This document shows, piece after piece, positions 4,556 to 28,635 of a stretch of 35,550 nt of DNA. The position numbers and the translations under genes were made by a program. Position 1 is the first letter of the stretch; every line of letters starts with the position of its first letter. The DNA lies in assembly GCA_903839465.1 (NCBI GenBank), contig CAIMCI010000284.1, positions 1 through 35,550 of the forward strand. The letters run 5' to 3'. The notes below the pieces were generated by a model, which was not told the DNA's origin, searched no databases, and saw only the letters and a program-made list of their open reading frames with translations. The DNA is from an uncultured Pseudomonadota bacterium (GTDB taxonomy: Bacteria > Pseudomonadota > Gammaproteobacteria > Steroidobacterales > Steroidobacteraceae).

Positions 4556-5354
4556 TCAGGCGCTTTGCGCGCGCAGCACCGGTTCGGCGACCGGCAGCCA
4601 GCCGACGGCGGTGGCGATCGAGCCGTCGGCGCCGAGCTCGAGGATCCGGAACCCCGGCGGCAGGCTGTCGATGGCGAAGCCGTCGATGCGCGGCCGGAAC
4701 TGCGCGCAGGTCGAGGGTGTGCCGTAGAGGGCGAGGGCGCCGCGCTGGCCGGCGTATTCCTGATGGACATGGCCCCAGATCACGGCCCGCGCCCGGCTGT
4801 GGCGGTCGAGGACCGCGAAGAACGCCTCGGCGTTGCGCAGCCCGACCTGGTCAAGCCAGTGGCTGCCCATGACGACCGGGTGGTGGTGCAGGCAGACGAG
4901 GGCGTGCTCGAAGCCCGTACCGCCGAGCAGGCCGTCCAGGCGCGCGAGTTCCGCCGCCGACAGCTCGCCGTCGGCGGCGCCGGGCAGGCGGGAGTCGAGC
5001 AGGACGATGCGCCAGGGGACCGTAGTCGGCGTGGCCGGTGAGCGTAAACGGCGGATCGGCGAGCACGAGGCGCATGGCCTCCGGCACGTCGTGGTTGCCG
5101 GGCAGGCAGTGGACGGTCTGGGGCAGGCTGCCGAAAACGTCGTAGAGGTGGCGGTACCCGGCGGGATCGTCCTGTACGAGATCGCCGGTCAGCAGGGTGG
5201 CGTCCCACTCGCCGACCCGCGCGCGGACTTCGGCCACGGTCGCGCGCAGCGAGTCCAGGGTCGCGATGCCGCGCAGCCGTCCGGCGGGATCGCCGAACAG
5301 GTGCGGGTCGGTGAACTGCACCAGCCGCACGGACTTCGAAGGTAGGTTGGTCAA
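4556..5354 (-). pseudogene. cpdA: cpdA-type 3',5'-cyclic-AMP phosphodiesterase, interrupted by a frameshift
   Basis: The two halves of one metallophosphoesterase lie in different frames. The first (from about 5354) carries the metal motifs FTDPHLFG, LTGDLVQDDP and LPGNHDVPEAM. The second (to 4556) carries CLHHHPVVMGSHWLDQ, the GHVHQEY metal ligands and the CpdA-typical TPSTCAQFRPR segment. They join if one base is removed from the run of four G (plus strand) at 5015-5018, restoring DYG-P-WRIVLLDSRLPGAADGE. The combined product would be about 265 residues, as in Escherichia coli CpdA, which hydrolyses cAMP. The start is probably the TTG at 5354 behind GGGAG. Either the gene is newly inactivated, or the base is a sequencing error in a short homopolymer. 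All catalytic motifs are intact, which favours an error or a very recent mutation. Confidence 0.85.
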
Positions 5355-5687
5355 GATCGGTTGCTCCCGCGGCGCGCCACCGGCGTCGCCCGTCCGCCTG
5401 CATGCGTTGGAGTGTGCCTTCGTCCTGAAGGTTCCTCGGTTCCGGTGCTGACAAAGTAGCAAAAGACGCCCGATTCGGACGGTGAACTGGTTCGATGGCG
5501 ACCGCCAGCAGGTGTGACGGATTCCGCCGATTTCCGGACGGTGACCGCGAGAAGTCAAATGGCCGGCCGGCGGGCGGCAGCGCCCCCGGCGCGGTCGAAA
5601 AAAGGGCCCCGGCATCGGGTGATGCAGGGGCCCCGGACTTGGCACTTCCAGGCAGGACCGGCCGACCGGTCCCGCCGCGGTCGCCGC
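5355..5687. other. intergenic region between ahcY and cpdA
   Basis: This 333-bp gap holds the ahcY terminator at 5598-5633 and, presumably, the promoter of cpdA on the minus strand. I see no gene-like frame in it: the open frames that cross it lack ribosome sites and family-like sequence. No convincing -35/-10 pair was recognised, so the cpdA promoter is not placed. Confidence 0.6.
5598..5633 (-). terminator. intrinsic terminator of ahcY
   Basis: Read on the minus strand, a hairpin with arms GGGCCCC-TGCATC and GATGCC-GGGGCCC (one mismatch, ACCC loop) at 5633-5604 is followed at once by six T (5603-5598). This is a textbook factor-independent terminator, 54 bp beyond the ahcY stop. It is the only clear hairpin-plus-U-run terminator I recognised in the window. 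Confidence 0.9.
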
Positions 5688-25476: not shown

Positions 25477-25961
25477 ACCGGCTGTCCGGCCAGCAGCCAG
25501 TCGCAGATTTCCCGAACGGCGCCGTGGCCGCCCGGCAGCTGCGTGACGCGGCCGGCCGCGGCACGCACGCTCGGGTGCGCGTCGGCCACGGCGATGCCGA
25601 GTCCCGCGCGGACGATCAGCGGCAGGTCGGGCGAATCGTCGCCGACGCAGGCGACCGCCTCGGGTCCGATGCCGAGGGTCGCGCACAGTCCATCGAAGGC
25701 GGAACGCTTGTCGGCGCAGCCCTGGATGACATGGCGGATACCGAGCTCCGCGCAGCGCAGCGCGACCGCCTGCGACTCACGCCCGGAGATGACCGCAACC
25801 TCGATCCCGGCCGAGAGCACCGACTTGATGCCGAGGCCGTCGCGGACGTGAAACCCTTTCAGCTCCTCGCCGTTCGGGCCGTACCAGAGCCGGCCGTCGG
25901 TGAGCACGCCGTCGACGTCCAGGACGAGCAGTTTCACGGCCGGAGTTCCGGTCGGGTTCAC
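25473..25961 (-). CDS. kdsC: 3-deoxy-D-manno-octulosonate-8-phosphate phosphatase KdsC
   Basis: A 162-residue HAD-superfamily C0 phosphatase (no cap domain, works as a tetramer) releasing Kdo from Kdo-8-phosphate for lipid A-core synthesis. HAD motif I is LLVLDVDGVLTDGRL with the nucleophile Asp, motif II is AVISGRES, and motif III/IV is the lysine in CADKRSAF with CVGDDSPDLPLI. The start is a GTG at 25961 that overlaps the kdsD TGA as GTGA. It is slightly shorter than E. coli KdsC (188) because the N-terminus is short. The pairing with kdsD and the lpt genes is the standard gammaproteobacterial operon. Confidence 0.96.
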   Translation of the reverse strand: MNPTGTPAVKLLVLDVDGVLTDGRLWYGPNGEELKGFHVRDGLGIKSVLSAGIEVAVISGRESQAVALRCAELGIRHVIQGCADKRSAFDGLCATLGIGPEAVACVGDDSPDLPLIVRAGLGIAVADAHPSVRAAAGRVTQLPGGHGAVREICDWLLAGQPV

Positions 25962-26965
25962 ATCACACCCGCACGGATCAGGTCGTGGATGTTGAGGGCG
26001 CCCACGACGCGCTGCTCCGCGTCGACGACCACCAGCGAGGTGATGCGGTAGTCCTCGACCAGGCGCGCCGCATCGACGGCCAGAGCCTCCGGCCCGATGG
26101 TTCTGCCGCCCCGGGTCATCACCTCGGAAATCGCCGTGCCGTGCACGTCGATGCGCCGGTCCAGTGCCCGGCGCAGGTCGCCGTCGGTGAAGATCCCGCA
26201 GAGCCGGCCGTTGGCGTCAACCACCGTCGTCATGCCGAGCCCCTTGGCCGACATTTCCAGCAATCCCTCCCGGACGGACGTGGCCGGGCTGACGCGCGGC
26301 ACGGCATCGTCGCCGTGCATCACGTCGGCGACCCGCGTGAGCAGGCGCCGTCCGAGGCTGCCGCCGGGATGGGAACGCGCGAAGTCCTCTTCGGTGAAGC
26401 CGCGCATGCCGAGAAGCGCAACGGCCAGCGCGTCGCCCATGGCGAGCGTTGCGGTCGTGCTGGCGGTGGGCGCCAGGTTCAGCGGACAGGCCTCCTCCGC
26501 GACGCTGACATCGAGGTGCACCGTCGCCAGCCGCGCGAGGCTGGAGGTGTCGCTGCCGGTGAGGGCGACCAGCGGAACCGCCAGGCGGCGCAGGTACGGG
26601 ACGATGCCGAGCACCTCGGCCGTCTCTCCGGAGTAGGACAGGGCGACGACGACGTCACCGCCGGCGATCATCCCGATGTCGCCGTGATTGGCCTCGGCCG
26701 GGTGCAGGAAGAAGGCCGGGGTGCCGGTGCTCGCCAGCGTCGCGGCGATCTTGCCGGCGACGTGTCCGGATTTCCCCATGCCGGTAACGACCACCCGCCC
26801 GCTGGCGGCCAGCATCAGCCGGCACGCGGCCGCGAAACGGCCGTCAATGCGCCGGGTCAGCGCGGTCAGCGCGTTCGCCTCGATGCCAAGCGCCCGCGCG
26901 CCGAGGGCGATGACGGCCTCATCGCTGAGCGGCAGGCTGGGTGAGGGACGAGGCGAGGCAGTGAT
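25958..26965 (-). CDS. kdsD: D-arabinose-5-phosphate isomerase KdsD (start codon non-canonical or mutated)
   Basis: Interconverts ribulose-5-phosphate and arabinose-5-phosphate, the first committed step to Kdo. The SIS domain has VVVTGMGKSGHVAGKIAATL, FFLHPAEANHGDIGMI and ALSYSGETAEVLGI; two CBS domains follow (GMTTVVDANGRLCGIFTDGD and ITSLVVVDAEQRVVGAL). The first ATG is at 26815, but in-frame sequence upstream clearly encodes the family's N-terminal helices (LSDEAVIALGARALGIEANA, then ALTRRIDGRFAAACRL). No ATG, GTG or TTG lies between these and the in-frame TAA at 27055-27053. A CGGAG site (26976-26972) precedes GTC and ATC codons; I set the end at the ATC at 26965 (335 residues, E. coli 328). 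A CTG at 26935 is another option, and a start at 26815 would lose about 50 residues. Confidence 0.93.
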   Translation of the reverse strand: MTASPRPSPSLPLSDEAVIALGARALGIEANALTALTRRIDGRFAAACRLMLAASGRVVVTGMGKSGHVAGKIAATLASTGTPAFFLHPAEANHGDIGMIAGGDVVVALSYSGETAEVLGIVPYLRRLAVPLVALTGSDTSSLARLATVHLDVSVAEEACPLNLAPTASTTATLAMGDALAVALLGMRGFTEEDFARSHPGGSLGRRLLTRVADVMHGDDAVPRVSPATSVREGLLEMSAKGLGMTTVVDANGRLCGIFTDGDLRRALDRRIDVHGTAISEVMTRGGRTIGPEALAVDAARLVEDYRITSLVVVDAEQRVVGALNIHDLIRAGVM

Positions 26966-26997
26966 GACGATCTCCGGGCCGCGACGTGAACCGGGCC

Positions 26998-27003
26998 AAT
27001 AAT
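26998..27003 (-). promoter_or_regulatory. candidate -10 element for the kdsD operon
   Basis: TATTAT on the minus strand (27003-26998) lies about 20 bp before the CGGAG ribosome-site candidate of kdsD. A start near 26991 would give a leader of only about 25 nt. No good -35 is seen at 17 bp. The intergenic region to ibaG is otherwise unremarkable; on the plus strand TACACT at 27054-27059 is a weak possible -10 for ibaG-murA. Confidence 0.35.
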
Positions 27004-27116
27004 AGCCGTCTGCGCCAGCGCTTGGGCGACTGTTCCCAGCCCGGTCAATTCCTTACACTGTCCGGGTCATTCCGCCACGGCTCCCGTGGCAGCCACCCAA
27101 CGCGGGATTCCGACCG

Positions 27117-28635
<1,519 letters not shown>

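Follow-up and report, generated by a model that had tools for sequence, protein, structure and literature searches.

Which codon starts translation of kdsD when no standard start codon stands at the conserved N-terminus of its product? The question arises at a locus in an uncultured member of the Steroidobacteraceae, within a window (the whole stretch of DNA analysed) of 35,550 nucleotides, where kdsD, whose product acts early in lipopolysaccharide synthesis, appears to use the rare start codon AUC. The features on which the argument turns are the following.

25958-26965, minus strand: kdsD coding sequence as proposed (AUC to stop), 335 codons plus stop
26963-26965, minus strand: proposed kdsD start ATC (AUC); same aligned codon in 3/3 genus members, strongest Shine-Dalgarno (SD) pairing of ten near-cognates
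26972-26976, minus strand: SD site CGGAG, 6 nt 5' of the ATC; predicted duplex -6.6 kcal/mol
26999-27004, minus strand: -10-like hexamer TATTAT (script-checked); like hexamers near the start in 141/197 kdsD loci
27053-27055, minus strand: in-frame stop TAA upstream of kdsD (script-checked)
26813-26815, minus strand: first standard in-frame kdsD start, ATG; its use would delete a conserved N-terminal region

The kdsD frame lacks a standard start codon at its conserved N-terminus

By script check, the kdsD frame runs for 79 codons without ATG, GTG or TTG between its upstream TAA (27055-27053) and its first ATG (26815). An earlier sequence-only reading of this DNA had claimed that kdsD has no standard start where its conserved N-terminus begins; the claim is borne out, since the KdsD-like region lies inside this clear stretch, and the coordinates which that reading gave for CGGAG, for the ATC at 26965 and for TATTAT (27004-26999) were found correct by script. 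The same frame also contains a GTC at 26968 (script check) and a second ATC, at 26971, which directly adjoins CGGAG.

The product is a predicted arabinose-5-phosphate isomerase, KdsD, of the KpsF/GutQ family. It passed the model TIGR00393 (KpsF/GutQ subfamily) with 362.7 bits against a cut-off of 203.7, and a query started at 26968 matched the NCBIfam KdsD equivalog NF008141 from query residue 23, over model positions 16-328 of 328, with 408.2 bits, below the strict 505-bit cut-off. Gene order and family matches agree on the cluster kdsD-kdsC-lptC-lptA-lptB-rpoN, with kdsD as its first gene, as had been proposed. No Rfam match was found in 26600-27500.

We compared 213 kdsD loci (201 distinct, including the window), drawn from the family and from beyond it, mostly from genomes with gammaproteobacterial titles. 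A standard start was present in codons -72 to -44, counted from the GMGKSGH motif, in 198 of the 201 distinct kdsD 5' regions, G001, a member of the same genus, being counted among the 198 through its GTG; the three exceptions were the window, its nearest sister genome G002 and locus L125, truncated at the end of its contig.

KdsD-like sequence precedes the ATG at 26815. The sequence-only reading had offered an N-terminally shortened enzyme as one way out, and this ATG is indeed the first standard start, and a protein begun there still scores 383 bits against the KdsD model, also below the 505-bit cut-off of NF008141. Such an enzyme, however, would lose the residues aligned to model positions 16-44, together with the alignment of the N-terminal region to the solved isomerase chain 2xhz, which runs from 2xhz residue 16. 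Codons -48 to -12 before GMGKSGH have dN 0.22 and dS 1.25 between the window and G002, and the region that would be lost is for this reason taken as coding and under purifying selection; moreover, the 198 of 201 loci retain a start 5' of the position of this ATG. Translation from the ATG at 26815 is therefore very improbable. Decay of kdsD would also account for a lost start codon, which is its usual first step, but the frame stays open throughout its 335 codons, and codons -11 to +149 give dN 0.09 and dS 1.05 (window versus G002). A genome search returned a single strong kdsD match and no second one, so the gene probably must be expressed, and we consider decay the least probable of the readings weighed here.

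An ATC codon is conserved at the same place in the genus

The genome set held three members of the genus, all draft assemblies: the window's genome (G000), G001 and G002. In an ungapped comparison, kdsD of G002 (locus L003) was 81% identical to that of the window and kdsD of G001 (L004) 74-75%. Alignment of the start codon against these close relatives, a check that the sequence-only reading had suggested, placed ATC at the same codon in both: ATC followed by AC stands at codon -61 before GMGKSGH in 3/3 genus genomes, with the ATC 13 codons 5' of conserved S/T-D residues in all three. Within an 84-column block, 18 columns were common to the three genomes, in runs of 1, 1, 1, 3, 6, 1, 2, 2 and 1; CATCAC, six columns long, was the sole run above three. 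Shuffles gave a run of at least six in 0/20,000 cases and an identical codon at the place of the ATC in 15/20,000. The 13-codon tail that starts at the ATC (dN 0.78, dS 0.58, window versus G002) looks unconstrained as protein, and yet ATC-AC is kept. In the 14 codons 5' of the ATC, window and G002 shared 33% of bases and 7% of same-frame residues, a low identity as expected if coding begins at the ATC. This conservation comes from one small clade of three genomes.

The sequence-only reading had also named a point mutation or a sequencing error. Loss of a normal start from the window's sequence through a base-calling or assembly error fits a draft genome of 421 contigs in which another gene of the same window, cpdA, is split between frames at a run of C near 5017 and may itself carry an assembly error. 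Against this, the same ATC, with no standard start anywhere in the expected zone, recurs in the separately assembled G002, and ATC is present in G001 too. Because ATC is kept in the sisters, while in 198/201 loci the zone contains a standard start, neither a sequencing error nor a shortened enzyme is likely; on this alignment an AUC start is more likely real and inherited than a sequencing error, and an error confined to the window is less credible even than the shortened enzyme.

The same alignment holds the main weaknesses of the AUC reading. G001 has a standard codon, GTG, two codons 3' of its ATC, with the same SD site 13 nt from the GTG, and a TAG stop four codons 5' of the ATC; this GTG could serve as the kdsD start instead. 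G002 has an in-frame ATG 15 codons 5' of the ATC, within a TATGAT hexamer and with an SD duplex of -5.7. The start codon might, then, differ by species, being the upstream ATG in G002, GTG in G001 and another near-cognate in the window, where CTG at -29 (-6.3) and ATC at -43 (-5.6) have SD-like pairing. We regard this as unlikely: it leaves the ATC at one aligned codon in 3/3 genomes unexplained; the G002 ATG lies within a -10-like hexamer of a type present in most relatives and is thus probably 5' of the transcript; and the window codons at -43 and -29 are inside the conserved domain, the former being GTC in G002. In G001 (L033), 5' of the kdsD ATC, a short out-of-frame reading frame with an ATG was also seen by eye, extending over the kdsD start region.

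The conserved ATC follows Shine-Dalgarno-like sites

SD-like sites precede the ATC in each genus member: CGGAG at a spacing of 6 nt in the window, GGGGGA at 7 in G002 and AGGA at 7 in G001. The predicted duplexes, computed with an assumed 16S tail, were -6.6 (window), -8.6 (G002) and -4.0 kcal/mol (G001); the 198 loci with standard starts had a median of -3.1 kcal/mol. A duplex of -6.6 was reached by 17/184 ATG loci; that of G001 is ordinary, being reached by 57/184.

The ATC at 26965 had the strongest SD pairing of all ten near-cognate codons in the window's kdsD frame. Initiation at AUC or CUG had been suggested for this gene, and the evidence separates the two: the AUC gains from the ATC kept in 3/3 genus members and from the SD-like sites, whereas the CTG nearest the N-terminus, at -51, has no SD pairing (0.7 kcal/mol), and a CUG start was rejected. 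The ATC at 26971, adjoining CGGAG, was likewise rejected, with pairing of just -1.7.

Promoter-like hexamers lie close to kdsD starts

In the neighbouring genus g23 (eight loci: L114-L119, L123 and L132), the leader ends at an ATG in 7/8 and at a GTG in 1/8; this codon sits about 30 nt 3' of a TATGAT or TATCAT hexamer. More widely, a TATNAT or TANAAT hexamer was found at most 60 nt from the chosen start in 141/197 loci, where mononucleotide shuffles gave an expectation of 6.5. The nearest hexamer ended 6-8 nt 5' of the start codon in 57 of those 141 loci, which suggests that some members of the family make kdsD transcripts that are leaderless or nearly so. Hexamers so placed before a kdsD ATG can be seen, for example, in L009, L012 and L122.

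Other genes of the lineage have candidate non-standard starts

In the window's genome and in G001, infC begins ATC-TCA, preceded by GGAGG and by a stop codon two codons 5' of the ATC, and infC of G144 (genus g23) likewise begins with ATC after GGAGG; a search for infC in G002 did not find it. Three further genes are candidates for non-standard starts.

L285 3192-3677, minus strand (also L352 and L353): trmL, candidate CTG start with an SD site 5' of the CTG
L285 near 1728 and L410 near 11987, plus strand: gpsA, no standard start near the N-terminus, conserved CTG
L263 7712-8351, plus strand (also L317 and L318): pgsA, no standard start in the 25 codons 5' of the N-terminus

In trmL, which a genome search found in 38/45 genomes, CTG replaces the first ATG in 3/3 genus genomes, with no standard codon back to the upstream stop. 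This CTG is at the family's first-residue position (residue 2 matches model position 2), and its SD duplexes are -6.6 (G000), -7.3 (G001) and -10.9 (G002). In both readable genus genomes the gpsA CTG overlaps the stop of the preceding gene (CTGA), 12 codons 5' of an aligned GAA/GAT. For pgsA, which overlaps the apparent end of what we take to be uvrC, no standard codon occurs in the 25 codons 5' of an aligned CCN-AAY in 3/3 genus genomes, unlike G144, which has GTG there. The gene pcnB was rejected as a second case and not counted, a candidate standard TTG being seen by eye near its N-terminus in three genomes.

A survey of coding frames with closed 5' ends flagged 12 of 481 in this genome (648,077 bases); an earlier version had given 21 positives of 447. 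Judged by eye, three of the 12 lacked a standard start (trmL, pgsA and kdsD), one was a frameshift (cpdA), L290 was undecided and seven were unconvincing. G001 gave 5 flagged of 344 frames in 383,431 bases, one judged genuine (gpsA), and the control G144, whose codon model was seeded with that of G000, gave 10 of 509 in 740,000 bases, one judged genuine (infC). The survey was partial, covering non-random stretches judged by eye with a small difference between genus and control, and it misses cases: infC and gpsA of this genome and trmL and pgsA of G001 lay inside surveyed stretches, unflagged. As for the frameshift, cpdA (cAMP phosphodiesterase; window 4556-5645, minus strand) passes between two frames at the run of C, with the junction near 5017, which points to an assembly error or to a broken gene.

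These cases suggest more non-standard starts in the genus (trmL CUG, gpsA CUG). A genus-wide relaxation of start-codon selection, in which core genes besides infC would have fixed non-standard starts (AUC on kdsD, CUG on trmL and gpsA, with pgsA lacking a nearby standard start), perhaps through an altered initiator tRNA, IF3 or P site, is a tentative idea that we hold possible, if doubtful. No initiator tRNA was found among the 33 (G000) and 34 (G001) distinct tRNA genes in the scanned stretches; tRNA-Ile and tRNA-Trp were likewise not found there, so assembly gaps or unscanned places are the likely reason. One tRNA-Met was found in each of G000 and G001, presumably the elongator, judging by its first base pair.

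Proposed initiation at AUC and its significance

AUN codons are read weakly by the initiator tRNA and selected against by IF3, and a strong SD site can offset this. We consider it most likely, with good though not full confidence, that kdsD starts at the AUC at 26965 as follows. A short leader would be transcribed from the putative TATTAT promoter; its CGGAG would position this codon in the P site of the ribosome; and the usual initiator tRNA would read it with a third-position mismatch, inserting formyl-methionine. By analogy with other non-canonical starts, KdsD expression would then plausibly be low, as the sequence-only reading had suggested, and IF3 might modulate initiation.

If true, conservation of AUC on the enzyme that opens Kdo synthesis would make kdsD a natural example of envelope synthesis limited by translation, and a genus-wide pattern would offer a natural system for studies of start-codon fidelity. 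Gene finders limited to ATG, GTG and TTG would truncate such proteins.

Comparison with known systems

The infC gene, encoding IF3, starts with AUU in E. coli. In Staphylococcus aureus its start is AUA (PMC13009471). Like kdsD, infC combines a strong SD site with a non-canonical AUN codon, and ATC is the first codon of infC in this lineage; infC differs in being autoregulated by IF3, kdsD being a metabolic gene. We know of no feedback on kdsD through IF3. E. coli pcnB reportedly has an AUU start (Binns and Masters, in 2002). It is a chromosomal gene other than infC that is limited by a weak start, as proposed for kdsD, but the codon and the gene are different, and pcnB of the genus has the candidate TTG in 3/3 genomes.

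To our knowledge, AUC has seldom been described as a natural start codon. In S. aureus, ribosome profiling showed that ccpN (AUA) and cvfC1 (AUU) have conserved non-canonical starts with extended SD pairing, and in poor medium reporters reached about 10% of the AUG level (PMC13009471). The kdsD start shares the conservation and the SD pairing; those genes differ in belonging to Firmicutes, in their codons and in having profiling data, the kdsD start being proposed from sequence. In the archaeon Staphylothermus marinus, the probably essential gene for ribosomal protein L12ae has no valid start codon, and alignment led to the proposal of an ATC start (PMC2678158), as for kdsD, but in a single archaeal genome, whereas the kdsD ATC is kept in three genomes behind SD-like sites. 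Two other reports describe a disrupted gene copy in Neisseria whose ATG has changed to ATC (PMC10210955) and an engineered mutant (PMC10303841). The proposed AUC of kdsD resembles these known non-canonical starts and would join them; the genus-level pattern would be the newer part.
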